From: Robertkochia aurantiaca
Lineage (GTDB): Bacteria > Bacteroidota > Bacteroidia > Flavobacteriales > Flavobacteriaceae
DNA length: 64,000 nt
Direction: 5' to 3'
NCBI RefSeq assembly: GCF_020166495.1
Contig: NZ_JAINZS010000002.1
Span: 62,001 to 126,000, forward strand
Shown here: one piece after another, positions 580 to 12,799 of the stretch
Layout of the letters: every line of letters starts with the position of its first letter
Position numbering within the stretch: the stretch's first letter is position 1
Translations under genes and position numbers: made by a program
Notes under the pieces: model-generated
Told to the model about the DNA's origin: nothing
Database searches by the model: none
Seen by the model: the letters and a program-made list of their open reading frames with translations, nothing else

Positions 580-1276
580 ACGATTACTTCGTGATCCTGT
601 AACAACCACTCCTGAAAATAAAAACCATCCCCGCTGGCGCGGTGATCGCTTTTTTATTCCCCATTCACTAACAGGACCGAGCGTATTAAAAAAGGTCCGG
701 TGGACCTTTTTAGCGTAGGGGCCAGCCGGCGGGGCGGGCAAACGACGCTCTGGGGTGAACAGGATTACTGCGTGATCATGTAACAGCCACTCCTGAAAAT
801 AAAAACCATCCCCGCTGGCGCGGCGATCGCTTTTTTTATTCCCTTTCGCTTTCAAAAGCAAGTGCAGGATTACTGCGTGATCCTGTAACAACCCCTCCTG
901 AAAATAAAAACCATCACCGCTGGCGCGGTGATCGCTTTTTTTATTCCCCATTCACTTACAGGACCGAGCGTATTAAAAAAGGTCCGGTGGACTTTTTTAG
1001 CGTAGGGGCCAGCCGGCAGGCCATGCAAACGACGCTCTGGGGTGAACAGGATTACTTCGTGATCCTGTAACAGCCACTCCTGAAAATAAAAACCATCCCC
1101 GCTGGCGCGGCGATCGCTTTTTTTATTCCCTTTCGCTTTCAAAAGCAAGTGCAGGATTACTGCGTGATCCTGTAACAACCCCTCCTGAAAATAAAAACCA
1201 TCACCGCTGGCGCGGTGATCGCTTTTTTTATTCCCCTTCGCTTTCAAAAGCAAGCTTTTGACACTCTGGGGAATAA
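580..1276. repeat. Array of five terminator-like repeats in a 287-bp compound unit
   Basis: Five related modules begin near 580, 761, 866, 1048 and 1153. Each has GATTAC-TGC/TTC-GTGATCCTG (a short inverted repeat), then CTCCTGAAAATAAAAACC. A hairpin with arms close to ATCACCGC/GCGGTGAT (loop TGGC) follows, then a T-tract and TTATTCCC. The spacing alternates (about 181, 105, 182, 105), and the 761 and 866 copies recur exactly 287 bp later, so a compound unit was duplicated. Two copies of a GGTCC-GGT-GGACC hairpin flanked by A and T runs lie at 673-720 and 961-1008. The array sits just 3' of the ancestral end of tRNA-Arg, read on the minus strand. No coding potential is credible here. Confidence 0.9.
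1228..1276. repeat. Two-stem structured repeat element, copy 1
   Basis: The outer arms are TTATTCCCC (1228-1236) and GGGGAATAA (1268-1276). The inner hairpin is CAAAAGC-AA-GCTTTTG (1245-1260). Spacers of 8 and 7 nt separate the arms. The same geometry with different but still paired bases is found at 26680-26728. The element lies between two terminator-like hairpins, next to the old tRNA-Arg end. Confidence 0.8.
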
Positions 1277-1306
1277 AAAAACCGCATCATTGCTGATGCG
1301 GTTTTT
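1275..1306 (-). terminator. Original terminator of tRNA-Arg
   Basis: A 9-bp stem ACCGCATCA/TGATGCGGT with a TTGC loop (1281-1302) is flanked by A and T runs, so it could act in both directions. On the minus strand it lies directly after the tRNA-Arg 3' fragment. It is therefore best read as the terminator the tRNA had before the element inserted. Confidence 0.8.
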
Positions 1307-1313
1307 GCTTTAA

Positions 1314-1357
1314 GTGATCGCGACAGGATTCGAACCTGTGACCGTCTGCTTAGAAGG
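1314..1357 (-). repeat. attachment-site repeat: 3' fragment of tRNA-Arg
   Basis: These 44 bp are identical to 4006-4049, the 3' part of the intact tRNA-Arg from the discriminator through the T arm and variable region into the anticodon stem. Immediately to the right, the similarity to the tRNA ends (GGTTAAAT here versus GGCAGATG in the tRNA). This is the usual footprint of integration into a tRNA 3' end, where the incoming element rebuilds the gene and the displaced end is left at the far boundary. Confidence 0.93.
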
Positions 1358-1448
1358 TTAAATATCACTGCTCTATTTTAAAGACTAACAAAGTTTCAAG
1401 TAATTTATTTGCAATATATTTACAATAATATACCACAAAACAAGAAAA

Positions 1449-2294
1449 ATGAGAGGTGGATTTAAGTTTGTAGATATATTCGATAAGGAATTTTTAGAAG
1501 ATTACCCTTTATATAAAAAGTATGATATCACTTTAGAAGATATACCCAAAATGCTTCTTTGGAATCAAGTTTCTATCAACGAATATTGTAATCATTGTAA
1601 AACTAATGAAACCTTCAATTTAAAAGCAAATTATGATCAAATGCTCCCTTCTTTCATGAAAGGATCATCTCAATCAAGCATTCTAAATTTCACCTTGTAT
1701 TTCAAGTGTCAATCTTGCCACCAATTCGAAAGGATTTATTCAATTCACCTCGATGAAGAAAATAAAATTATGTTTAAGACAGGTCAGTATCCTCAATGGG
1801 AGGTTGAATCGAACAAAAAGCTGAAAAAAACATTGGGTAAACATTATAGCAATTACAACAAGGGTTTAATATGTGAGGCTAACTCTTATGGGATTGGAGC
1901 ATATGCATATTATAGAAGAATCATCGAAGAAATTATCGTAGAATTAATCGAAAAGATTGAAGAGATGATCGATGATGATGAAGATAAACAAGTTTATCAT
2001 GAGGCATTGGAAAAAAGTAAACACTCTAAAAATGCCACCGAAAAAATTAGTTTGGTTATGGATTTATTGCCTGCTTCCTTAAGATTAGATGGGATAAATC
2101 CTTTAAAAACCATTTATGATGAACTCAGCGAAGGTCTACATGGGGCTAAGGAGGTAGAATGCTTAAACAGTGCAGAAATAATGAGGAAATGCATAGTATT
2201 TCTAATAGAACAAATTGACTTACAACTTTCAAAGAAACAAGTCTTTACAAAAGATATTAAAGCATTATTGGATAAAAAGGCAAGAAGACCGTGA
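1449..2294 (+). CDS. Zinc-ribbon / DUF4145 domain protein, element cargo
   Basis: A 281-residue protein. The N-terminal half has two CxxC pairs (C47/C50 in EYCNHC and C87/C90 in FKCQSC), which look like a zinc ribbon. The C-terminal half (about 140-265) is helical and has GAYAYYRRIIEEIIVELI and DELSEGLHGA, as in DUF4145. I recall DUF4145 being described from restriction-associated proteins, but its biochemical role is unknown. There is no signal peptide or membrane segment, so it is probably cytoplasmic. It is the only cargo of the integrative element, so a host-benefit role such as phage defence, or a role in the element's own life cycle, is plausible but unproven. The codon use is AT-rich compared with neighbours, consistent with transfer. 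Confidence 0.75.
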   Translation: MRGGFKFVDIFDKEFLEDYPLYKKYDITLEDIPKMLLWNQVSINEYCNHCKTNETFNLKANYDQMLPSFMKGSSQSSILNFTLYFKCQSCHQFERIYSIHLDEENKIMFKTGQYPQWEVESNKKLKKTLGKHYSNYNKGLICEANSYGIGAYAYYRRIIEEIIVELIEKIEEMIDDDEDKQVYHEALEKSKHSKNATEKISLVMDLLPASLRLDGINPLKTIYDELSEGLHGAKEVECLNSAEIMRKCIVFLIEQIDLQLSKKQVFTKDIKALLDKKARRP

Positions 2295-2299
2295 GAGCA

Positions 2300-3517
2300 T
2301 CATATAAAAATTTGCTTATTAATTTTTGCTAATTCCTTATCAATAATTGAATTAGGTAATCTTCTTTGATAACCAAATGTGATTCCTTGGGGTGTATGAC
2401 CCTGAATCTGCATTATAACAAGAGTATTTATAAGTAAATTTCCAGCATAAGTCCTGAATAAATATCTTGGAGATTTGGTTTTCAATTCTGATTGAAATTC
2501 TAAAGCAGCTGAAATCGTTTTAAGTGACCTATTAATATTCTGTCGATGATGTTTATACCTCTTGTCAATAGGTATAAAAGAAAAAATCCGTCTTGAAGAT
2601 CTGTCCCCGTATTTTTTTATTATATCTAACGCATATCGATTTAAACGGTTATCTATTATAGGACCTCCTCCAGGTTTATTTTTATTCTTATAGCGTTGAA
2701 ATCTAATTCGATCGTTGGAAATATTGTCCCAAGTTAAATGAGCTATGTCAATATAATCCTGTCCACCGATAGCGAACTGAAACAACCAAATTCGAGCGGT
2801 TCTCTTCATGCTACGCTTATTAGCAAGAGAACTCGAATTGGATTCGTAGTTAAAAATTCTTCGAAGATCTTCAGGTGAAATGTTGGGTATCTCTTTCTTC
2901 TTGCCCTTTTTAATGAGACCCTTGAAAGGGTTCCCAGACTTGATGCCGTACGACTCCCTTCTTTGTGCTTCTAAATAAATCGTACGCATGGACCGCAAAT
3001 AATAAGAAATACCATGCTCACCTGTTCCTGAGAGCTTTTTATAAAGTATGAACTGATTTAAAAGCTCATAGTTTATATCATTGATTAAAAGGCTTTTACC
3101 AGACAGGAATTTTGTTAATTGATTTACAGCCTCCTTGAGATGTTGGGAGGATAGACCTTTAGCTTCCTTTTCATAGATTAGGATATTAGCAAATTCAGAA
3201 AAGGTTATGGAGTTTTTTGACCTTAAATTTTCCAAATCTTTTTCAAGCTTATTCACTGCGAACTGATCATTAGGTCCATTCTTTATTATATAAAGTGAAT
3301 CCTCGTAGTTCAAATCATATTCGTTACAATAATCTAACCTTCTACTTAACTTATATTCAATTTTTCTTATCTCAGTAGTGTGATTTAACTCCTTTGAGAA
3401 CTGATAAATTTTTAATGGTATGTATGTGTATTTACCCTTATAGAATAGTCTAATTTTAACTGGGAAACCCTTTTTAGTTGATCGTCTCTTATCAAGTATG
3501 ACCTTGCCCCTAATCAT
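2300..3517 (-). CDS. Tyrosine recombinase (integrase) of the tRNA-Arg element
   Basis: About 405 residues, starting MIRGKVILDKRRSTKKG, the typical beginning of Bacteroidota integrases with an arm-binding domain. The frame is open 39 nt further to a TTG at 3556, but the ATG at 3517 fits the family better. A SAM-like core-binding domain (about 105-215) precedes the catalytic domain (about 225-395). Visible catalytic residues are Arg of YLFRTYAG (~355), His of IQGHTP (~374) and the nucleophile Tyr of TFGYQRR (~383). The first catalytic Arg is Gln (GGQDYIDIAHLTW), and the His of HxLR is Tyr. IntDOT of CTnDOT also lacks the first Arg, so activity is not excluded. The gene converges on the cargo gene. 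Confidence 0.92.
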   Translation of the reverse strand: MIRGKVILDKRRSTKKGFPVKIRLFYKGKYTYIPLKIYQFSKELNHTTEIRKIEYKLSRRLDYCNEYDLNYEDSLYIIKNGPNDQFAVNKLEKDLENLRSKNSITFSEFANILIYEKEAKGLSSQHLKEAVNQLTKFLSGKSLLINDINYELLNQFILYKKLSGTGEHGISYYLRSMRTIYLEAQRRESYGIKSGNPFKGLIKKGKKKEIPNISPEDLRRIFNYESNSSSLANKRSMKRTARIWLFQFAIGGQDYIDIAHLTWDNISNDRIRFQRYKNKNKPGGGPIIDNRLNRYALDIIKKYGDRSSRRIFSFIPIDKRYKHHRQNINRSLKTISAALEFQSELKTKSPRYLFRTYAGNLLINTLVIMQIQGHTPQGITFGYQRRLPNSIIDKELAKINKQIFI

Positions 3518-3559
3518 CCTTCTCTGGAGTTTTGAAAATTTGCAATGAATTTGCAATAT

Positions 3560-3960
3560 CCTTGCAAGCCTAAGACTTAGAAAGAATTCACTGCTAATTT
3601 TAGTTTAATAAAGAATATTGATTATAAGAGCTCCAGAAGGTTGGACTTTTCGAATGCAATATTGGATTGCTTGAACGAATATATTACTTGAAATAAACCC
3701 GGTAAAACGCTTCAACTGAAAAGCGAATAAATTCGATAACACGGTCCTATCTAAGGTTATTATGGTAAAATTAGAGTATTTATAGCCAAAGGGATATGCC
3801 TTATAAAAGCGATGTTTAAATGAAGGTTTAAAGCCAAATTTGGATTAAGATTATAACAACAAATTGAATGAAAATTTGTTTTCTTTTTGATCGAGAAGAA
3901 ATGGTTAGTATTCCACTTTTTATTCCACTATTAGATAGAGCACATTAAACCGACCCTTAA
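3560..3960. other. Non-coding right end of the integrative element
   Basis: No plausible gene is seen in this AT-rich stretch between the integrase start and the tRNA-Arg terminator. The visible items are TATTCCACT repeated twice about 11 bp apart near 3910-3935, and a cluster of TTGCAA words at about 3540-3566 just upstream of the integrase. These could be recombinase arm sites or control elements. This is a guess from position only. Confidence 0.5.
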
Positions 3961-3961
3961 T

Positions 3962-4003
3962 ATAAAAACCACGAAACCCCCAGGGTTTACTGAGGGTTTC
4001 CGG
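3962..4003 (-). terminator. tRNA-Arg terminator supplied by the element
   Basis: On the minus strand a stem with GAAACCC/GGGTTTC, extended by flanking CCAC/GTGG, is followed by a T-run just after the tRNA CCA. It replaces the terminator stranded at 1275-1306 by the insertion. Confidence 0.7.
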
Positions 4004-4005
4004 TG

Positions 4006-4049
4006 GTGATCGCGACAGGATTCGAACCTGTGACCGTCTGCTTAGAAGG
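4006..4049 (-). repeat. attachment-site repeat inside intact tRNA-Arg
   Basis: This is the second copy of the 44-bp direct repeat (first copy 1314-1357). It covers the 3' end of the functional tRNA-Arg. Identity stops in the anticodon stem on one side and at the CCA on the other. Confidence 0.93.
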
Positions 4050-4080
4050 CAGATGCTCTATCCAACTGAGCTACGCGACC
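4007..4080 (-). tRNA. tRNA-Arg (anticodon TCT)
   Basis: On the minus strand the sequence folds as acceptor GGTCGCG/CGCGATC (one G-T pair), D stem GCTC/GAGC, anticodon loop CTTCTAA with anticodon TCT, and T arm ACAGG-TTCGAAT-CCTGT. The discriminator is A, and CCA is encoded (4004-4006). It is the insertion site of the integrative element, which rebuilt its 3' end. Confidence 0.97.
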
Positions 4081-4097
4081 CTTTTGCTTTCGGGCTG

Positions 4098-4129
4098 CGA
4101 ATATACAATTAAACTGAAATAAGATGCAA
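4098..4129 (-). promoter_or_regulatory. Candidate promoter for tRNA-Arg
   Basis: On the minus strand TTGC (4126-4129) is followed after 20 nt by TATATTCG (4098-4105), one mismatch from the Bacteroidota -7 consensus TAnnTTTG. It lies 17 bp upstream of the tRNA 5' end. Confidence 0.55.
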
Positions 4130-4208
4130 CTAATTTTTCAATTTTTATATCCCGACCCGCTGATTGGAACGTTTATCACAGATAATTCTCAAGGCTCATA
4201 CGTTCTAT

Positions 4209-4242
4209 TTTGATAATTTTTGAAATATTTTTCCTACATTTG
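4209..4242 (+). promoter_or_regulatory. Candidate promoter for the 4335 lipoprotein gene
   Basis: TACATTTG (4235-4242) matches the Bacteroidota -7 consensus TAnnTTTG. TTTG at 4209-4212 is 22 nt upstream, slightly longer than usual. The gene starts 92 bp downstream. Confidence 0.5.
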
Positions 4243-4334
4243 AAATAAGGGTAGCCCCAAATCCCTGTATATGAACTGGATTTTTCTTACCATACCACTT
4301 CTTTTCTCTAACTTAACCATTAACCATATGCTTT

Positions 4335-4922
4335 ATGAAAACCTTATCCTGCCTTCTGCTGTGCCTGATATGCTATGCCTGCGCAGACAGCAACACCTCC
4401 AGTAAACATGAACTCTTGCTTGACGGGTCCCGCATAGATCTTGAACTTCCTTCACAATTCAAAGAATACAACAGCGAAGCTCTGTCTGGTCTTATTCAGA
4501 AAAAGAAATCCATGAACGAAATCATGGCATTGGAGTCATATCGTTCCATGCTTCAGTCAGATGAACGATTGCGTATTTTTATCGATACCTCAAACGTCTT
4601 GAACAATATACAAATGGTAGCCGGACACAATATTCCGATGACTAAAAATACGGCACAGATGCTTAGCACCATAACCCGGGATGATCTCTACCTAAAAACG
4701 AGGTCTATGGGTGCCAAACTCGATATTCTGGAAACTTCGGTCAATAAAGGACAGCATCAGTATATCAAACTGAAATATGCTATTGAAATGGAAGACGACA
4801 CCCTTTACCAGACCAACTATGTGCTGAAAGGCCCTGAACGTTCATTAGGCCTTATTCTTGCCAATGACGGGCAGGAAGACCTGGAGGAAAAGATCAGGCA
4901 ATTCAGATTTATACAGCAATGA
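4335..4922 (+). CDS. Uncharacterised lipoprotein
   Basis: A 195-residue protein with a short hydrophobic N-terminus ending in CYACADSN, so it is probably a lipid-anchored envelope protein with the modified Cys around residue 16. The rest is soluble and has no motif I recognise; the chain is rich in charged residues and ends FRFIQQ. It has its own candidate promoter and is 93 bp ahead of the S9 peptidase gene. I cannot assign a function. Confidence 0.7.
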   Translation: MKTLSCLLLCLICYACADSNTSSKHELLLDGSRIDLELPSQFKEYNSEALSGLIQKKKSMNEIMALESYRSMLQSDERLRIFIDTSNVLNNIQMVAGHNIPMTKNTAQMLSTITRDDLYLKTRSMGAKLDILETSVNKGQHQYIKLKYAIEMEDDTLYQTNYVLKGPERSLGLILANDGQEDLEEKIRQFRFIQQ

Positions 4923-5015
4923 TCTTACTTCAAAGGTATTGCCACCGGCAGAAGAATAACGCTTTTTCACTGAAATTCAATATCTTGTGATAGTATAATT
5001 TAAATATCTATCACC

Positions 5016-7001
5016 ATGAGACTTTTGTTATTTCTGGCGGTCGCTTCTGTTTCGCTCATGATCCGGGCTCAGGAAAAACAGACACTGACTCCTGAAGATA
5101 TCAGCAACCTTCGATCAGTTACAAATGCCATGTTGTCTGAAGATGGAGAGCATATTCTATACACTATAACTGTTCCCGCAGATCCAAAGGAAAGCAATGA
5201 GCTCCCTGAAACACACCTTTTTAAGCATAGTATTGCTTCAGGACAACAGGTGACATTGGTAAATAACCTAAGTGTGAGCCAGGTACAGTTCAGACCCGGT
5301 TCACAGACAGTAAGCTTTATAGCTAAACCGGAAGGCCAGGAAACCTCAGCCATATACGAGATCGCATTATCGGGAGGAGACCCGGAAAAAGTCTTTGAAT
5401 TCACCACAGATATTAAAGATTACTACTGGCATCCCAATGGCTCTGTTCTGGCTTTTACCGCCAATCCTCCCGAAGAAAACGAAGAGGGCTCAGAACTTCC
5501 ATACCAACCTGAGATATATGAAGAAGAACAGATCAATACCGCAGCCTATATCGTCTCTCTCGAAGAGGCAGTCTCCCGTAAAGTAAATATGGATTATCAC
5601 GTAAGCCAGGTCAAATGGAGTCCTGAAGGATCACATCTGGCCGTGAAAGCAGCTCCTTCTCCCCTGGTCGATGACTTTTATACAAGTTCCAAGATCTTCA
5701 TCGTGAATCCATCCAGTTATCAGGTCAGCAGAAGGATCGATCATACAGCCAAACTGGGAGATTTTGAATGGAGTCCCGATGGCAAACATATCGCCATGAT
5801 CGCAGGAGCCGATAAGAATGACCCCATTGATGGCAGACTGCTGATCACGGCACTTTCTGACGGAGAACCACGAATCATCAAAAAAGATTATCCGGGCGCA
5901 TTCGAACAGGTGGCATGGCTGGACAACCAACACCTGATGACCATCAGCAGTGAAGGTGTCTATAGCAAACTTCAGAAATTCGATATAGGAAATGATTTCG
6001 AAACAGTATTTCATCAAAAAGATATCGACCTCAGCCATTTCAGTGTAAATAAAGGAGGCATCATTGCCCTTATAGCCAATACCCCGCAACACCCGGATGA
6101 GCTCTATCTGAAATCGGGAGACAGTAATGTAAAACGCCTGACCGACCTGAATCCATGGCTTAAGGAAAAAGCTATGGGAAAACAGGAAGTCATCTCCTAT
6201 GCTGCAGACGATGGTACCAGGGTCGAAGGGATACTTATACACCCAGTCAGCCAGCTCGACAATGCTCCGCTCATAACTGTGGTTCACGGAGGTCCGGAAG
6301 CGCATTACGATAACGGCTGGCTAACCGCTTACAGCGTACCGGGACAGATGGCTGCAGGGAAAGGATACGCCGTATTCTATCCTAATTACCGTGGCAGTAC
6401 AGGTCGCGGACTGACCTATGCCATGTCAAGCCAGGGAGATCCGGCAGGTAAGGAGTTTGACGATATCATAGACGGAATAGATCACCTGATTGAAAATTAC
6501 GGTATAGACGGGTCCAGAGTTGGAGTGACAGGAGGATCATACGGGGGTTACGCTACCGCATGGATGGCTACCCGGCATACCGAGCGGTTTGCTGCCGGTG
6601 TCATGTTTGTTGGAATCAGCAACAATCTTTCAAAATGGGGCACCAGTGATATACCGGAAGAAATGTTCCTGGTACATAGCAGGAAGCGCATTTGGGATGA
6701 CTATCAGTTCTTCCTGGAACGAAGTCCGATTTACTATGCCGATCAAAGTAAAACACCGTTGTTGATCATGGCAGGCAAAGATGACACCCGTGTAGATCCC
6801 GGACAATCTTATGAGCTTTACCGTCATATCAAGACAAGAACAGATACCCCGGTGCGACTGGTGCTCTACCCCGGAGAAGGCCACGGGAACAGAAAATCAA
6901 CTGCACGCTATGACTACAGCCTGCGCATGCTGAGATGGTTTGACACCTATCTGAAAAAGGAAGGTGACGCCATTCCTGAGAAGCCCACCTTAAAAGATTG
7001 A
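5016..7001 (+). CDS. S9 family prolyl oligopeptidase-like peptidase
   Basis: A 661-residue exported serine peptidase. Residues 1-18 are a signal peptide (MRLLLFLAVASVSLMIRAQ). Residues 40-370 form the beta-propeller part, with WD40-like phrases such as DFEWSPDGKHIAMI. Residues 410-650 form the alpha/beta hydrolase domain. The catalytic triad is visible as Ser508 in GGSYGGYA, Asp589 or Asp590 in KDDTRVDP, and His623 in GEGHGN. It resembles acylaminoacyl peptidases and DPP-IV-like enzymes that cut peptides in the periplasm. The exact specificity cannot be told. It is followed closely by the 7025 lipoprotein gene (24 bp), and the two may be co-transcribed. Confidence 0.93.
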   Translation: MRLLLFLAVASVSLMIRAQEKQTLTPEDISNLRSVTNAMLSEDGEHILYTITVPADPKESNELPETHLFKHSIASGQQVTLVNNLSVSQVQFRPGSQTVSFIAKPEGQETSAIYEIALSGGDPEKVFEFTTDIKDYYWHPNGSVLAFTANPPEENEEGSELPYQPEIYEEEQINTAAYIVSLEEAVSRKVNMDYHVSQVKWSPEGSHLAVKAAPSPLVDDFYTSSKIFIVNPSSYQVSRRIDHTAKLGDFEWSPDGKHIAMIAGADKNDPIDGRLLITALSDGEPRIIKKDYPGAFEQVAWLDNQHLMTISSEGVYSKLQKFDIGNDFETVFHQKDIDLSHFSVNKGGIIALIANTPQHPDELYLKSGDSNVKRLTDLNPWLKEKAMGKQEVISYAADDGTRVEGILIHPVSQLDNAPLITVVHGGPEAHYDNGWLTAYSVPGQMAAGKGYAVFYPNYRGSTGRGLTYAMSSQGDPAGKEFDDIIDGIDHLIENYGIDGSRVGVTGGSYGGYATAWMATRHTERFAAGVMFVGISNNLSKWGTSDIPEEMFLVHSRKRIWDDYQFFLERSPIYYADQSKTPLLIMAGKDDTRVDPGQSYELYRHIKTRTDTPVRLVLYPGEGHGNRKSTARYDYSLRMLRWFDTYLKKEGDAIPEKPTLKD

Positions 7002-7024
7002 ATTAGTAATTAAAAACCAACCAT

Positions 7025-7522
7025 ATGAAAAAAATAATCTTTACAGTCTTTTGTGCAGTCACCTTCATTGCCTGCCAGGAGGAAAAACCAGTTATTGAAG
7101 TTACTGAAGTCGAAGACAAAATGGACATGAAGGCTATACTCGAAGGAGTTGAACGCACCCGCGAAGGATTTACCAACGCCATCAATCAAGGCCGATTTGA
7201 AGACATCGAGAATTTCACTCATCCTGATCTCTACGTTGTCGGGCCCGGCAGCGCCGATTGGGTAAAAATGAGAGAGCTTGCCGCCGAAAAAGGAACATTT
7301 GGCTATGACAGTATCATTATGAGTCCGATCGAAACGATCGTCATGAGCGATAGTATTGCCTACGATATGGGAACGAGCAAAGTTTTTTATACCGATGAGC
7401 AAGGAAATGTAATCAGTCTGAAAGATACCTACATAGCCCTGCTGAAAAAGGGAAATGATGGCGAATGGAAATTATGGCGGGAATTGGCTACCTCGACTGT
7501 GCTAGACACTCTTGATCAATAA
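7025..7522 (+). CDS. SnoaL-like / DUF4440 lipoprotein
   Basis: A 165-residue protein with a lipoprotein signal (TVFCAVTFIACQEE, Cys at residue 18). After a charged linker, residues 40-160 have the pattern of the NTF2-like DUF4440/SnoaL fold: MKAILEGVERTREGFTNAINQGRFEDIENFTHPDL and, at the end, DTYIALLKKGNDGEWKLWREL. Proteins of this fold bind small ligands or lack a known activity. It follows the peptidase gene by 24 bp and converges on the VTT-domain gene. Confidence 0.75.
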   Translation: MKKIIFTVFCAVTFIACQEEKPVIEVTEVEDKMDMKAILEGVERTREGFTNAINQGRFEDIENFTHPDLYVVGPGSADWVKMRELAAEKGTFGYDSIIMSPIETIVMSDSIAYDMGTSKVFYTDEQGNVISLKDTYIALLKKGNDGEWKLWRELATSTVLDTLDQ

Positions 7523-7532
7523 TAGCAAAGTA

Positions 7533-8204
7533 TCAATTCCTGAAAAATCGTTTCCATAAGTAATGAATCAGAAGCAGAAGAAACATCGCCACTGACCCCC
7601 AAAGCATCCCCTCTTCAAAGGAGTCAGATGTTTCCCCGAGCACAGCTATGGCTATGGTCAGCGGGGTGGTCCCAGCGACGGTGGCCAGAATGAAAGTGAA
7701 ATAGTCAATCCCCAGAATACCCGCCACAAAACTGATGGTATCATTTGATAATAAAGGATTCAAACGGGTAATAAAAACTGCCCAGAAACCATAGTCTTTA
7801 AGAAATCCTTCCAACTTTTGTTCTTTATTTCCCCCCAGAAATTTTTCCATAATCGACGGCCCCACATAACGTCCGGCGAAGTATCCAACTGTAGAAGCCG
7901 CAAAAACAGCGAAAATGGCCAGAACAGAGCCCCAATAAGGCCCGTAAGAAAGAATGGAAACAACCATGAGTCCTACACTCGGAATCACGATAAGAAACAT
8001 CTGTACGATCATTAAAATAATGATCAAAAGGGGAGCCAGCCAGCCGAAACTTGTGATCCAATCCTTGATCTGAGAGGGTTCCCCGCTCTTCAAAACATCC
8101 CAGCCCTGATTCACGAAAGTCTGAAATTCCGGGGAAAGAAACCAGGCAATGACACTCAACAACAATAATCCACCTGAAATATAAAGAGGAAATCTTTTCA
8201 TCAA
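7533..8204 (-). CDS. TVP38/TMEM64 family membrane protein (VTT domain)
   Basis: A 223-residue integral membrane protein with about six hydrophobic segments. The central VTT/SNARE-associated domain shows AASTVGYFAGRYVGPSIMEKFLGG and FWAVFITRLNPLLSNDTISFVAGILGI, with the conserved re-entrant regions and Arg/Pro pair. Relatives (TVP38, DedA) act on lipid transport or scrambling in the inner membrane. The first two codons are both ATG, so the start may be 8204 or 8201. It converges with the 7025 gene, 10 bp apart. Confidence 0.88.
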   Translation of the reverse strand: MMKRFPLYISGGLLLLSVIAWFLSPEFQTFVNQGWDVLKSGEPSQIKDWITSFGWLAPLLIIILMIVQMFLIVIPSVGLMVVSILSYGPYWGSVLAIFAVFAASTVGYFAGRYVGPSIMEKFLGGNKEQKLEGFLKDYGFWAVFITRLNPLLSNDTISFVAGILGIDYFTFILATVAGTTPLTIAIAVLGETSDSFEEGMLWGSVAMFLLLLIHYLWKRFFRN

Positions 8205-8253
8205 GCAGGTATATAATCAAATTGATTCATCTGAGAGATATCGCTAACTTGCT

Positions 8254-8808
8254 TTATTCTGATTCTATTTGTTTTACGTTGCCCTGATATCCGATAGAGA
8301 ACCTTTGAGAACTGTTCACCCATACTGAAGCATTCAGATTAGGAAAAAGTATCAGGTTTATCTTATAACTCTCTGTCTTTTTACTGGCCGAAAAACTTAT
8401 ATTGTATCGTTCTTTATCTTTATCGAATGACACTTCAAGGTCTCTTGCCGGGCCATCGAAAGTGATTCCGATATCTCTGGCTCCATAAGGAGCAGACATC
8501 TGCCTCTCTCCGAAATACGGCAGATCAGCCTTCACACTGTCACCTTTCATGATCAGATAATTGGGGGTTCCCTGAATGTTGATTCTGCTGGCAGTATTAC
8601 CCGGCCAAAGCAAGCCTGAATTAACAGCCGCCTGAAAGCCCTGTGAGGGCAAGGGAGCCGCATAATTCGCACGTATTTCAAAATTCATGGATTCAACCAA
8701 TTCATGTAGCTTTTCCAATTGGACTGTCTTCTCCGCTGCGTTTTGCTGAGAGCTGCAACCAGTAACAATACAGAATAGAGTGATCATTAAAAACTTGTAC
8801 CAATTCAT
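8254..8808 (-). CDS. DUF4251 family lipoprotein
   Basis: A 184-residue protein starting MNWYKFLMITLFC; the lipobox VTGCSS gives the anchored Cys. An in-frame ATG at 8838 would add 10 polar residues ahead of the signal peptide and is less likely. The body has FEIRANYAAPLPSQGF, YLIMKGDSVKADLPYFGE and MSAPYGARDIGITFDGPA, which are hallmarks of DUF4251, a Bacteroidota family of unknown function. It probably sits in the periplasm or at the outer membrane. It is divergent from the App1-like phosphatase gene. Confidence 0.85.
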   Translation of the reverse strand: MNWYKFLMITLFCIVTGCSSQQNAAEKTVQLEKLHELVESMNFEIRANYAAPLPSQGFQAAVNSGLLWPGNTASRINIQGTPNYLIMKGDSVKADLPYFGERQMSAPYGARDIGITFDGPARDLEVSFDKDKERYNISFSASKKTESYKINLILFPNLNASVWVNSSQRFSIGYQGNVKQIESE

Positions 8809-8928
8809 GATTCCGGTTTTTTCGCTGTTTATTTCCATATAAGTTAAACAGTATTTTACTGATAACTAAAGGCTTTTGAAAAAATCTATTTATTTTCCGG
8901 GTGACTTATTCTTTCTTAAGCTTTCAAC

Positions 8929-9942
8929 ATGGCATCAAAGAATCTCTTCAGGAAAATATTAGGAAGAAAGAAACCGGTGATCGTATTGCCTTATCAGGGT
9001 TTTGCTTCTGATCAACAGATTTATGCAAAGGCAAGGGTGCTTGAAGATGAGGGTATCAAACACCATCAAAATGACAGCCTGCTGAAAAATCTGTACAATT
9101 CGTATAAACGGTTTGAATCTGATGAAATTAAGAATGCCCTGGTAAGAGTACATATTTTAGATATGGAATTCACCTATCGTTCAGATAAGGAAGGATATAT
9201 TTACGTAGACGAGAAAGTAGAAAATGAAAGCCTGCAAAAGGTCTCCTCAGAATGGATACCTGCCAGATTCCAACTGCTCCATAAAAATGAGGAAGTGTTC
9301 ACTACAGAGACAAAACTGTTAAAGCCACTTCCTGTATCAAACTTCGGAATCATAAGCGATATGGACGACACGGTTCTTCAAACCGGAATCAGTTCCCGGT
9401 TCAAACACCAGGTGCTGATCAATACACTTTTAAGACATAGCTCGAAAAGAAAACCTCTTGAGGGCATGAACCGCTTCTATAAAAAACTGAGAAAAGGTCC
9501 TGAGCAAAACAGCAGTAATCCATTCTTCTATTTGTCTAACAGCCCCTGGAACTTGTATGACTACCTGATCGACTTTCTGGATTTTCATGACTTCCCCGAG
9601 GGCATATTGTTATTAAGAGATTTCGGGCTTCACCTGGTAAGAAAAAAACATTTCACCGTTCGGAATAAGTACCGAACCATCAGCAGACTGCTAACTACCT
9701 ATCCCGATATGGAATTCGTTCTCATTGGTGATGCCGCCGATCAGGACCATGATATCTATCTCGAAATAGCCCGAAATTTTGAAGACCGGATCAAAGCCGT
9801 ATTTATTCGTAACATAAAGGGTTCAAAGAAATCAGTCTATGTAAAAGAACTGATCGAAAATACAGCTCATGTGAAAGCTTTTCTTTTCAACGATGCAGAT
9901 GAGGCCTTGATAAAAGCCAGGGAGTTTGGGCTCATAGTCTGA
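8929..9942 (+). CDS. App1-like phosphatase domain protein (DUF2183)
   Basis: A 337-residue cytoplasmic protein. The C-terminal half carries the HAD-like phosphatase signature ISDMDDTVLQTG, with Asp144 and Asp146 as likely nucleophile and acid. FFYLSNSPWNLYDYL and FVLIGDAADQDHDIY follow, matching later HAD motifs. Yeast App1 is an Mg-dependent phosphatidate phosphatase, and bacterial relatives are presumed to act on phosphate monoesters; the substrate here is not known. The gene appears to be transcribed alone. Confidence 0.85.
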   Translation: MASKNLFRKILGRKKPVIVLPYQGFASDQQIYAKARVLEDEGIKHHQNDSLLKNLYNSYKRFESDEIKNALVRVHILDMEFTYRSDKEGYIYVDEKVENESLQKVSSEWIPARFQLLHKNEEVFTTETKLLKPLPVSNFGIISDMDDTVLQTGISSRFKHQVLINTLLRHSSKRKPLEGMNRFYKKLRKGPEQNSSNPFFYLSNSPWNLYDYLIDFLDFHDFPEGILLLRDFGLHLVRKKHFTVRNKYRTISRLLTTYPDMEFVLIGDAADQDHDIYLEIARNFEDRIKAVFIRNIKGSKKSVYVKELIENTAHVKAFLFNDADEALIKAREFGLIV

Positions 9943-10048
9943 TCGCCGGTAAGGAGTGAGCCGTCGTCCAAACCCCGGAACCTTCATAAGCCTTATATAG
10001 AAGAAAAAACCTGAAATGCATTAGTTTTGAATGTTATGACATAAAGGT

Positions 10049-10104
10049 GACACCCAAATGTCGTAACGATGTACCGGTTTATCGGCTAGTTTTGACATGT
10101 CAAA
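10049..10104. promoter_or_regulatory. Cluster of inverted repeats, candidate autoregulatory operator
   Basis: A perfect 14-bp palindrome TTTGACATGTCAAA lies at 10091-10104, 15 bp before the ATG at 10119. A second related inverted repeat, GACA-N6-TGTC, lies at 10049-10062. Both share the half-site GACA/TGTC. They stand in front of a gene with an N-terminal XRE DNA-binding domain, so autoregulation is a reasonable inference. Confidence 0.5.
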
Positions 10105-10118
10105 CAAAAGATAAAATC

Positions 10119-11894
10119 ATGAGTAATCAAACTATAGGAAAGAATCTGCTTTATCAAAGGCAGTTAAAAGGATTGACACAGGAAGAACTGGCTGAACGCA
10201 CCCAGGTCACCGTTCGTACCATACAGCGAATCGAAAAGGGATCTGTGAATCCGCACCTCCAAACCATAAAATTACTCGCAGCCGCACTGGAAATAGAACC
10301 GGGCGATCTGTTACCCCTTGATGATCCCAAAAAGGAAGATATTCAGAAGAAATGGCTTATTTTCATGCATGGTACCCCACTTTTCGGGCTGTTTCTACCC
10401 CTCTTCAATATCCTGATCCCCCTGTTCTTATGGATTCATAAACGGGACGACAATGATCTGTACGACCAACACGGGAGAAAGATCCTGAATTTTCAGATAA
10501 CTGCTACCTTACTTTACATGCTTTCATTCGTGGCCTTACTGACCATAGAAAAATGGGGATTCATAATTTTTATCAGTTTCATCCCTCTGTACCTGGGTAT
10601 TATTCTGATCAACGTGATAACAGTGGTAAAAAAGACACGCTGTTTTTATCCACCTTCCATACCCTTTTTCCGAACCGCATCTTCTAAAACAAAAAGGCAT
10701 TCCAGTTTAGTACTGATCGTTCTGTTATTGATGTGTACCGCTCCCTCGGCTCACTCCCAAACGATCGAAAGGCTTGACGGTTCTGAAATTCAGGTGAAAG
10801 ACCTTAACCGGGAGATTGAAATACTCATGGGAAAAGCCAATGTAACCGGGATGGCAATCTCTGTTTTCAATAATTCAGAAGTTGTTCATACGCAGACATA
10901 CGGATTTAAAAACGCCGATTTACAACAAGCCCTTTCACCTTCAACAAATATTTACGGGGCTTCATTCAGTAAGGCGGTTTTCAGTGTCCTGGTGATGAAA
11001 CTGGTGGAAGAAGGTTTTATAGACCTCGATACGCCCCTGCAGTCTTATCTTCCTAAGAAGATATACCAGTATGAACCTGAAACACGCTGGCATGACGATT
11101 ATTCAGATCTGAAGAATGATTCCCTTTACTCAAAAATAACCGCCAGAATGTGTTTATCACATACAGCCGGTTTTCCAAATTACCGTTGGTTCGAGCCGGA
11201 TCAGAAGCTCAGGGTGGTAAACCAACCGGGAGAGCGTTATCAATATAGCGGCGAAGGCCTGATATATCTCCAGGTAGTACTGGAAAAGATAACCGGAAAA
11301 GGACTGCAGGAACTAGCTGAGGATCGGATTTTTAAACCCCTGAAAATGACCAACTCCTCTTATCAGTGGGAAAAACGTTTCGAGAAAGATTTTGCCTTTG
11401 GGCACAACCGTGAGGAACGAAGGTATAAAAAAGATAAAGACAATGAACCCAGGGGTGCCGGAACGCTTGAAACCACAGCCCAAGACTACACGCTATTCCT
11501 CCAAGCCGTATTAAACCGGAAGCTTCTTTCTGAATCATCATATAACGAGTTGTTTAGTCCGCAGATACGCATCAGAACCAAAAATCAATTCGGCCCGGGA
11601 GCCAATAAGATGACCGATGCCAATAACGATATCAACCTCAGTTATGCTTTGGGGTGGGGCTATCTGGAAACACCTTTTGGAAAAGGAGTGTTCAAAGAAG
11701 GTCATGGTAATGGTTTTCAGCATTACTCCATTTTATTTCCTGAAACGGGTAAAGGGATTATGATTATGTCGAACAGTGATAACGCTGAAAGTATCTTTAA
11801 ATATGTTTTGCAAGTCGCACTCAAAGACACCTACACGCCCTGGAAGTGGGAAAATTATATTCCCTATGATCATGAACCAAACACAGGTTCCTAG
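10119..11894 (+). CDS. XRE HTH - DUF4870 membrane - beta-lactamase-like serine hydrolase fusion
   Basis: A 591-residue three-part protein. Residues 5-60 form an XRE helix-turn-helix (LTQEELAERTQVTVRTIQRIEKG). Residues 78-170 are DUF4870-like, with three hydrophobic segments around the typical DQHGRKILNFQIT. Residues 195-214 look like a retained signal peptide (hydrophobic run ending in SAHSQ). Residues 225-580 are a class C/penicillin-binding-like serine hydrolase with SxxK (Ser282-Phe-Ser-Lys285), Tyr of YQYSGEG and GHGNG. The ATG at 10119 is chosen because it begins the HTH cleanly; the frame is open upstream to 10047. The hydrolase domain should lie outside the inner membrane and the HTH inside. 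I see no frameshift or internal stop. Confidence 0.88.
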   Translation: MSNQTIGKNLLYQRQLKGLTQEELAERTQVTVRTIQRIEKGSVNPHLQTIKLLAAALEIEPGDLLPLDDPKKEDIQKKWLIFMHGTPLFGLFLPLFNILIPLFLWIHKRDDNDLYDQHGRKILNFQITATLLYMLSFVALLTIEKWGFIIFISFIPLYLGIILINVITVVKKTRCFYPPSIPFFRTASSKTKRHSSLVLIVLLLMCTAPSAHSQTIERLDGSEIQVKDLNREIEILMGKANVTGMAISVFNNSEVVHTQTYGFKNADLQQALSPSTNIYGASFSKAVFSVLVMKLVEEGFIDLDTPLQSYLPKKIYQYEPETRWHDDYSDLKNDSLYSKITARMCLSHTAGFPNYRWFEPDQKLRVVNQPGERYQYSGEGLIYLQVVLEKITGKGLQELAEDRIFKPLKMTNSSYQWEKRFEKDFAFGHNREERRYKKDKDNEPRGAGTLETTAQDYTLFLQAVLNRKLLSESSYNELFSPQIRIRTKNQFGPGANKMTDANNDINLSYALGWGYLETPFGKGVFKEGHGNGFQHYSILFPETGKGIMIMSNSDNAESIFKYVLQVALKDTYTPWKWENYIPYDHEPNTGS

Positions 11895-12037
11895 ATTCAA
11901 TATGCCGGGTTCGGTGGTATAGGTTAAAGATCTGAACCTTAGGAATAACGGATAGGAGTAGATGTTTTAAGTTAAAACACCCCTAAAACTTCACAGATCA
12001 TTTCTTTTAAATCCCGGCAAGATGTATATTTCTGATA

Positions 12038-12799
12038 ATGAATTATTTCGTTGAAAAAGGTTCGGTCGTTAGAGAAATATGGGGGCAGGGCGATACCATC
12101 TTACTGATATTCGCCGGGGCTGCTGCTGAATTCGCTTTGAATAAGGCGGTAGACTGGCTGTATTTTACCGGACGACTCCCTGCCGATCCGCTGGGTAGGC
12201 TATTTTCAACCGTAACCTATGCCAGGGATATCGTATTTTCAGCAGAGAACAAGGCTGAAAGCGCTATCGACCGGATCAGTTCCATCCACAGCGCGGTTGA
12301 AAAATCCCGTGAAAGAAAGATTCCTGACTGGGCATACAGAGATGTGCTGTTCATGCTGATAGATTATTCGATACGTTCATACGAGGTATTCGGTCACTCC
12401 ATGGATCTCGCGGAAAAAAAGGAAGTCTTTGAGGTTTTCTTGAGAGTGGGAAGCCGAATGCAGATCAACGGATTACCCCGGGACTACGATAGCTGGGTAG
12501 ATATGCGTGAAAATCATATCATAAATAACCTGGAGAACAGTTATCTTACCGGGAACCTCTTTAAACAATACCGTAAACACCTGGGACCGGGCCGGTATTT
12601 ACTCTTAAAGGAAGCTCAGAAATTGGTTGTTCCCATACAAGTAAGAAAGATGCTTGGATTCAGCAAACGCTCAACGCTCTCGCCATTTCTACCTGTTTAC
12701 AGATCCCTGAAAGGAACCAAGTGGGAATGGCCGTTAAAAAAGCTGATCCTGCCTGAGGAATATGTAGACAGGATCAAAGCTTTGGATATTCCTAATTGA
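12038..12799 (+). CDS. MpaB-like oxygenase family protein (DUF2236)
   Basis: A 253-residue protein with the opening IWGQGDTILLIFAGAAAEFALNKAVDWL and GRLFSTVTYARDIVFS, followed by VEKSRERKIPDWAYRDVLFMLIDYSIRSYEVF. This matches the MpaB/rubber-oxygenase-related DUF2236 family. In characterised members this is a haem-binding fold, with His residues in the helical core. The substrate is unknown. It stands alone on the plus strand and converges with the 12883 gene. Confidence 0.8.
   Translation: MNYFVEKGSVVREIWGQGDTILLIFAGAAAEFALNKAVDWLYFTGRLPADPLGRLFSTVTYARDIVFSAENKAESAIDRISSIHSAVEKSRERKIPDWAYRDVLFMLIDYSIRSYEVFGHSMDLAEKKEVFEVFLRVGSRMQINGLPRDYDSWVDMRENHIINNLENSYLTGNLFKQYRKHLGPGRYLLLKEAQKLVVPIQVRKMLGFSKRSTLSPFLPVYRSLKGTKWEWPLKKLILPEEYVDRIKALDIPN

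Follow-up and report, generated by a model that had tools for sequence, protein, structure and literature searches.

A 2.7-kb integrase element with a single cargo gene at tRNA-Arg(TCT) of Robertkochia aurantiaca

Tycheposons combine a tyrosine recombinase with a tRNA site, and the same combination is present in a 2.7-kb element of the flavobacterium Robertkochia aurantiaca, which consists of an integrase gene and one cargo gene and is located near the left end of a 64,000-nucleotide stretch of contig NZ_JAINZS010000002.1 (positions 62,001 to 126,000; hereafter, the window). For the tDNA islands compiled by Islander, a lower limit of 2 kb is given (PMC4383910); a 2.7-kb element is just above this limit and therefore not outside the listable range. 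PICMI115, with 6,110 bp, is termed the smallest satellite with characterised activity (PMC10803314). The window element is best interpreted, with a probability of about 0.6, as a stripped-down prophage-type integration module that carries one accessory gene.

The insertion in tRNA-Arg(TCT)

The element is bounded by two copies of a 44-bp sequence that are identical over 44/44 bp and spaced by 2,692 bp (Table 1). The repeated sequence is the 3′ half of tRNA-Arg(TCT): ARAGORN identifies a single intact tRNA gene, at the right boundary, Rfam detects one tRNA (4007-4080), and the left copy consists of the tRNA 3′ half only, not of a whole tRNA. The G+C content is 0.32 in the insert, compared to 0.47 in the left flank and 0.435 in the right flank. 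The insert contains two open reading frames (ORFs) of at least 50 aa, those of the cargo and the integrase, which are convergent, with the stop codons 5 bp apart. As in tRNA-integrated genomic islands, a repeat of the tRNA 3′ end bounds an integrase-containing segment and the tRNA is restored. An earlier interpretation made from the DNA letters alone (hereafter, the sequence-only reading) had proposed an exact tRNA-Arg repeat around an AT-rich two-gene segment, an integrative element with one recombinase and one cargo gene, and a 5-bp distance between the convergent genes; all three proposals agree with these data. The insert contains no further ORF of at least 50 aa for an excisionase or for a replication, packaging or regulator protein. 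Neither of the two ORFs encodes a structural protein, so that the element lacks the structural and packaging genes that define a temperate prophage.

The four other members of the genus (one genome per species) have one intact tRNA-Arg copy each and no fragment copy (0/4). A tblastn search detects neither the integrase nor the cargo in their tRNA-Arg loci, which extend over 7.4-7.7 kb on the tRNA 3′ side in three genomes and over only 355 bp, to the contig end, in the fourth (G301). The site is unoccupied in all four congeners, most clearly in G299, where the displaced flank is recognizable: window positions 1152-1357 and 4006-4105 map to adjoining positions in that genome, the overlap being the 44 bp, and the flank of the left copy, which in the tRNA sense reads TTAAAGCAAAAACCGCATCAGCAATGATGCGG, nearly matches the G299 sequence just downstream of the intact tRNA. 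In another congener, G223, the corresponding flank differs in sequence, yet likewise consists of a hairpin and a T-run. Judging from these comparisons, the segment is an insertion. Given that the left copy carries the G299-type native flank, it is the original 3′ half, displaced together with the native terminator; the right copy arrived with the element, which also supplied a terminator-like hairpin of its own. The sequence-only reading had named two outcomes that would speak against an insertion, namely, the same two genes in all relatives with no empty site, and an unrelated tRNA duplication. The first is not seen, and chance or an unrelated duplication is rejected as the source of the repeat, because the left copy has the G299-type flank and the congeners are single-copy.

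The acceptor stem reads CGCGATC in both window copies and CTCGATC in the four congeners. The shared variant may indicate that the element arrived from the same lineage; this indication is weak because the A. nanhaiensis tRNA reads CGCGATC too. The restored tRNA gene encodes the CCA end at 4004-4006, with the last two bases derived from the element; at this place, the native flank and the four congeners have CAC and then other bases. To the left of the element, at 582-1257, a 101-bp unit containing a hairpin and a T-run occurs five times inside two 287-bp tandem copies (97% identity). G299 has similar units downstream of this tRNA; the host genome (3.43 Mb in 11 contigs) contains one further copy, a weak one, on contig C8. 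To the right of the tRNA (4105-12038), approximately 7.9 kb precede the next stretch shared with G299, compared to approximately 1.6 kb in that genome, so that this side is variable in the genus as well.

Table 1. Features of the tRNA-Arg element and its boundaries, in window coordinates
Feature	Position	Strand	Basis
Displaced native tRNA terminator region	1268..1313	-	Flank TTAAAGCAAAAACCGC... resembles G299 sequence downstream of the intact tRNA
Attachment-site copy, the displaced original tRNA-Arg 3′ half	1314..1357	-	Exact 44-bp repeat; G299-like flank next in the tRNA sense
Insert interior	1358..4005	.	G+C 0.32; genes not found at congener tRNA-Arg loci (tblastn)
Candidate distal (P′) arm-type sites TGTAAAT and TGCAAAT, 11-bp period, 67/56 bp from the att core	1409..1425	-	Sequence pattern
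Cargo gene of the PHROG 25239 family; 281-aa product with CxxC...CxxC at the N-terminus and a C-terminal helical domain	1449..2294	+	
Tyrosine recombinase (integrase) gene, 418 aa from TTG; alternative ATG at 3517	2300..3556	-	Pfam, model alignment
Candidate proximal (P) arm-type sites at the integrase start, TGCAA present three times with an 11-bp period	3540..3567	-	Sequence pattern
Stretch between integrase and tRNA, no internal ORF >45 aa	3568..3972	.	
Element-borne terminator-like hairpin replacing the native one downstream of the tRNA	3973..4000	-	-23.5 kcal/mol, z -2.9
Restored tRNA-Arg(TCT), with the second repeat copy (4006-4049) within it	4004..4080	-	ARAGORN, Rfam

The integrase, its prophage relatives and candidate arm-type sites

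A Pfam search identifies the Phage_int_SAM_5 (SAM_5) domain in the integrase (E 2.2e-9). The AlphaFold model, with a mean pLDDT (predicted local distance difference test) of 82.7 and a pTM (predicted template modelling score) of 0.49, aligns with lambda integrase (Z 13.3, root-mean-square deviation (rmsd) 14.7 over 305 residues) and with the catalytic domain 3nkh (Z 13.2, rmsd 3.4 over 161); a sequence search of the PDB gave two chance-level matches only. Relatives with 34-43% identity are encoded in Kordia, two Allomuricauda genomes, Sinomicrobium, Empedobacter, Flavobacteriaceae DT_32 and two IMG/VR contigs, and a ninth, at 21% identity (L079), was excluded. In the alignment of these eight sequences with the window protein, K290, R364, H387 and Y396 are invariant (9/9), and the position of Arg I is occupied by GG in all nine; we take these to be the catalytic positions, as assigned by alignment to the motifs of the class. 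Arg I is also weakly conserved in the IntCTnDOT subgroup (PMC8138268).

The two Allomuricauda integrase genes each come after a tRNA-Arg(tct). In one of these genomes, G953, the tRNA 3′ end recurs as a 36-nt copy on the same contig at a distance of 50.6 kb, and the interval encodes a terminase of the lambda type (GpA) as well as portal, major capsid, tail sheath, tape measure and baseplate proteins; in the other, G954, the second tRNA copy is on a different contig, and the size of 50.6 kb refers to G953 only. Two further relatives are encoded at the ends of viral contigs of 52.6 kb and 40.1 kb. The Allomuricauda prophages (L074/L240-L242 and L075/L243) share with the window element the tRNA and the core boundary at the anticodon-loop point, an integrase that is 42% identical, the offset of the arm pair described below, and a convergent ORF after the integrase gene. 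The difference is in the content: the measured prophage has head, packaging and tail genes in its 50.6 kb, whereas the window element has only the integrase and one cargo. A mechanically called convergent ORF overlaps the integrase stop or is located within 26 bp of it in 7/8 relatives (L073-L078, L080 and L081, the exception being L073). Approximately 4.5 kb further in, the viral contig L080 encodes a protein that has CxxC pairs and is assigned to DUF4145 by Pfam.

The ends of the element carry candidate arm-type integrase sites. Within the 64-kb window, the pattern TTGYAA-n5-TTGYAA, with an 11-bp period, is confined to the two sites listed in Table 1, at the element ends. The far-end TGYAAAT repeats are at -67/-56 relative to the CCTTCTAAGC core in the window, at -68/-57 in G954, and at -67/-56 in the viral contig L257; G953 has TGYAAAT at -67 and TGCAAAA as the second repeat. 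Other Flavobacteriaceae loci, 1.14 Mb in total, contain 23 TGYAAAT-n4-TGYAA pairs, or about one per 50 kb, and at this rate the equal far-end position in four att sites is unlikely to be due to chance. Strict patterns are also present at the integrase start in four of the six relatives with upstream DNA (L073, L074, L075 and L076), L080 and L081, which begin at the integrase start, being left out of this count. These observations suggest that the TGYAAAT repeats are arm-type integrase sites. The distal pair is 23 bp from the start codon of the cargo gene.

A search for the far-end arm and core pattern identifies five of 397 genomes, in two of which (the window and Allomuricauda G229) the pattern runs into the tRNA 3′ half, and in three of which it does not. 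Among viral contigs, it is found in 12 stretches: L257 runs into the tRNA-Arg 3′ half, L253 and L256 run into another tRNA-like sequence, and the remaining nine do neither. In L257, a second, inverted TGCAAAT pair is located beyond the att core (6574-6591) and perhaps represents the end of a neighboring element. In its sequence layout, the window element resembles the part of such prophages next to the integrase, joined without intervening genes to the far-end arm. The presence of both putative arm-type sites strengthens the proposal of the sequence-only reading that this is an integrative element at tRNA-Arg.

The cargo protein and its family

The helical C-terminal domain of the cargo protein contains the motifs GIGxxxYxRRxxE and LSxGxHx6C. 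No Pfam, NCBIfam or PADLOC family matches the protein above the cut-off. The match is to PHROG 25239, the function of which is not annotated, with E 1.8e-40, and all 37 aligned family members likewise match this profile. Relatives are encoded in 8/299 Flavobacteriaceae genomes, the source genome included (in G278, only over 65 residues with a stop), and in 8/395 genomes across the phylum, again with the source genome included and with four of the eight covering part of the model only. A search with the alignment detects relatives in 44 of 72 candidate viral stretches, where a single-sequence search of the viral contigs found nothing; elsewhere, there are one phage record and two plasmid records. 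The family is unnamed and common in viral contigs. The alignment analyzed here (A3, 37 rows) consists of the window protein, 6 relatives from genomes and 30 of the 44 viral loci; the other 14 viral loci, the Rhizobium phage row and two plasmid rows (one plasmid protein being the same as L083) were excluded. Residues C87, K110, P115, G148, Y154, R156, R157, P208, S227, H231 and C238 are invariant (37/37), whereas C47 is present in 32/37, C50 in 31/37 and C90 in 15/37 members.

The structural model of the cargo (pLDDT 88.3) consists of a beta-rich N-terminal part and a helical part. The best VIA-align match is 2q00 (Z 10.8, rmsd 2.6 over 121). Sixteen of the 25 top matches are presumably HEPN proteins, some of them by title, with Z 6.8-7.6; VIA-align advises caution for helical bundles under a Z of about 13, values of this size being common among them, and the matches are mixed with designed bundles and receptors. 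A Foldseek search of the PDB and BFVD gives no match at E 0.001.

The sequence-only reading had described the cargo as a CxxC/DUF4145 protein. The CxxC part of this description stands; the DUF4145 assignment does not hold by Pfam, where PF13643 matches neither the cargo nor any other member of the family (0/37 at E 0.05), and is retained only as a remote relationship in profile comparison. An hhalign comparison of the cargo alignment with a set of Zn-ribbon/DUF4145 proteins yields P 1.8e-7 for the full length; with the N-terminal and C-terminal parts taken separately, P is 1.9e-5 and 0.006, respectively. In the controls (30 column shuffles each for the full and the C-terminal comparison, a reversal, and the integrase alignment), the best P values are 0.04-0.17, with 0.098 as the best for the full-comparison shuffles. 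The set (A5) includes 12 of 13 proteins, L218, which has no ribbon, having been dropped and longer multidomain matches excluded, and six other candidate loci yielded no ORF; this choice of rows favors the ribbon part of the comparison. Thus, a relationship between the cargo and DUF4145 is likely but remote, and comes largely from the ribbon-like N-terminal part, the signal of the helical part by itself being weak. As in the Zn-ribbon proteins with a DUF4145 domain of the HEPN superfamily (PMC3710099), CxxC pairs are followed by a helical domain; instead of the conserved GNxxxH stretch and its upstream R/K described there, the cargo has S-x3-H. The model and these profile comparisons are compatible with a protein in which a Zn-ribbon-like N-terminus is combined with a helical domain that is remotely DUF4145/HEPN-like.

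Analysis of the genomic context of the relatives makes a defence function of the cargo plausible. In a Rhizobium phage that was induced from a lysogen, a relative adjoins the major capsid gene and is the only gene there on the opposite strand; in a Leptospira plasmid, a relative is two genes away from Shedu; and in the genome G045, the relative adjoins a UvrD-like helicase and DarT. Among ten hand-picked neighbor proteins of cargo relatives, four match PADLOC models and six do not; the positives are a GajB-like UvrD helicase and DarT (L066), SduA (L072) and a PD-Lambda-2-like protein (L071). In the L066 locus (3098-7946), the cargo relative shares its strand with the genes for the UvrD-like helicase, the ADP-ribosyltransferase DarT and an ADP-ribosylglycohydrolase; together they may form a defence cluster of the DarTG type. 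Among viral relatives with mechanically called ORFs on both sides, both neighbors are on the opposite strand in 7/39, so that a lone reverse gene is not the rule in viral loci. In G195 (L065), a cargo relative is located near tRNA-Arg, and there is no second tRNA copy and hence no bounded element.

Origin of the element and relation to known systems

Under the favored scenario, the element entered tRNA-Arg(TCT) as a 2.7-kb circle through the action of a lambda-Int-like tyrosine recombinase, with the crossover at or near the anticodon loop. The outcome, a restored tRNA 3′ half and a new terminator, is read from the sequence itself, and the route is what we infer from it. The integrase would bind the TGYAAAT arms and the core and recombine the circular attP with attB. 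The element would have kept the attP layout of the prophage family that uses the same tRNA, i.e., an arm pair 67/56 bp beyond the far core and another set at the integrase start, and the single cargo would fill the convergent slot beside the integrase, where the relatives carry a convergent gene too. The cargo product, a predicted Zn-ribbon-like and HEPN-like helical protein, would most likely be an anti-phage factor. Occupancy of the arms could restrain both genes, given that the proximal arms extend across the integrase start and the distal ones closely precede the cargo start codon. The att repeats and the putative arms suggest that the two genes move together. Because there is no ORF for an excisionase or a replication or packaging protein, the spread of the element probably needs factors supplied in trans by a related phage, or passive routes such as transduction or transformation. 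Excision would require an external directionality factor, and transfer an external vehicle. The related phage has a lambda-type terminase, so that packaging of a 2.7-kb unit presumably needs concatemers, and the element has no replication gene. Packaging of PICMIs uses concatemers (PMC10803314).

Several observations weigh against this scenario. The sequence-only reading had called for a search for the same integrase-cargo pair elsewhere, and no second two-gene element of the integrase family was found among the genomes and viral contigs examined, so that the window element could be a one-off deletion. No second related integrase was found in the host genome, and thus no resident helper of this family. 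The arm-type sites are assigned from sequence patterns; at the integrase start, the pairs of two relatives, L077 and L078, are degenerate, and in the L257 record, which is perhaps incomplete, no integrase of the family was found. With regard to the cargo, the second CxxC is incomplete in most relatives, so that metal binding may not be general in the family; the Rx4-6H motif of HEPN RNases is missing, with no R at H-4 to H-8 in 36/37 members, the window protein included; and none of the 37 members matches any PADLOC model.

Alternatively, the cargo could serve the element or the host in another capacity, e.g., as an integration regulator or a stress-related RNA-binding protein. The absence of the canonical HEPN RNase motif and the 23 bp that separate the start codon from the distal arm pair, which make co-regulation possible, are in line with such a role; the occurrence of the family in many viral contigs and the position of some relatives beside known defence genes speak against it, and we regard it as possible, with defence as the preferred function.

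For the element as a whole, the main competitor of the integration module is a dead remnant, i.e., a tRNA-Arg prophage that lost nearly everything between the first accessory gene and the far end and persists as an immobile leftover. This explanation is compatible with the close integrase relative in the 50.6-kb prophage and the two at the ends of the 52.6-kb and 40.1-kb viral contigs, with the finding of a single such short form, and with the lack of a remaining ORF fit for an excisionase. We nevertheless consider it unlikely, given that both ORFs are intact and that the two att copies and the two putative arms are still present, spaced as in the rest of the family. The CGCGATC stem in both copies could mean a recent insertion from the same lineage, which would be a weaker argument against a remnant and, with the same stem in A. 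nanhaiensis, is no proof.

A more specific version of the integration module scenario is that of an att-mimicking hitchhiker that keeps its own integrase and a core and arms recognizable to related prophages, is moved in trans, occupies their site and pays with a new type of anti-phage gene. We put this forward as a speculation, rather unlikely in its full form; if true, we would know of no smaller mobile defence unit derived from a prophage. The proposal that the unit is a satellite finds no support, since no ORF is left for a regulator, replication or packaging protein and no second related integrase was found in the genome. That a free integrase with att arms gained one accessory gene and never was a full prophage is highly improbable, because the arm layout, the site and the convergent neighbor slot are those of prophages, even though other small tRNA elements with the same broad class of integrase, such as the 4.2-kb L129, exist in the family.

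A survey of integrase relatives in 299 genomes, an even draw from a larger group, lists 128 places besides that in the window; the small-element survey, which detects elements up to about 10 kb, covered 64 segments around such places, a few of them containing two, and 70 loci, 66 of them distinct (L060-L063 are the same as L073, L074, L076 and L078). A tRNA repeat spans the integrase in six surveyed loci (L126, L129, L145, L149, L159 and L163). In five of these, the fragment is downstream of the tRNA as expected, at 4.2-9.7 kb; in L145, 22-bp copies are upstream, and there is perhaps no element. None of the six is an element with one cargo gene. L129 (9089-13276) is a 4.2-kb tRNA-Arg(tct) element from another Flavobacteriaceae genome that is bounded by a 74-bp repeat, nearly the whole tRNA, and encodes a different integrase, a convergent 116-aa gene product and a MORN-repeat protein. 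L145 (4405-15755) contains two integrase genes, each next to a 22-bp tRNA-Val fragment that is located upstream of the tRNA instead of downstream, and may or may not represent stacked elements.

If interpreted correctly, the window element is a compact case for the debated origin of helper-dependent elements from phages by gene loss, in which the att layout and the integrase would have been kept. The analysis further proposes arm sites for a Flavobacteriaceae integrase family and highlights an unnamed protein family, with a Zn-ribbon-like part and an LSxGxH helical domain, that is present in many viral contigs and is a candidate for phage-defence screening. The putative tandem TGYAAAT sites at the integrase start and at the far att core, with a far-end layout apparently shared with prophages, are new here. 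Among the literature records listed, judged by title and abstract opening, there is no matching description of a one-cargo integrase element.

Among known systems, the tDNA islands of Islander (PMC4383910) are alike in having a tyrosine integrase, a duplicated tRNA 3′ end and a restored tRNA, and differ in size, with peaks at 13.6 and 39.9 kb compared to 2.7 kb with one cargo here. Phage satellites of the PICI, PICMI and P4-like types have a regulator and a replication or primase gene beside the integrase, whereas the window element has two ORFs only. The PICMIs in particular (PMC10803314) are likewise small, site-specific and integrase-bearing, but encode AlpA and a primase and integrate next to fis, none of which applies to the window element. 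Tycheposons are described as cargo carriers of 4-200 kb (PMC10872708) and differ in this from the 2.7-kb element analyzed here.

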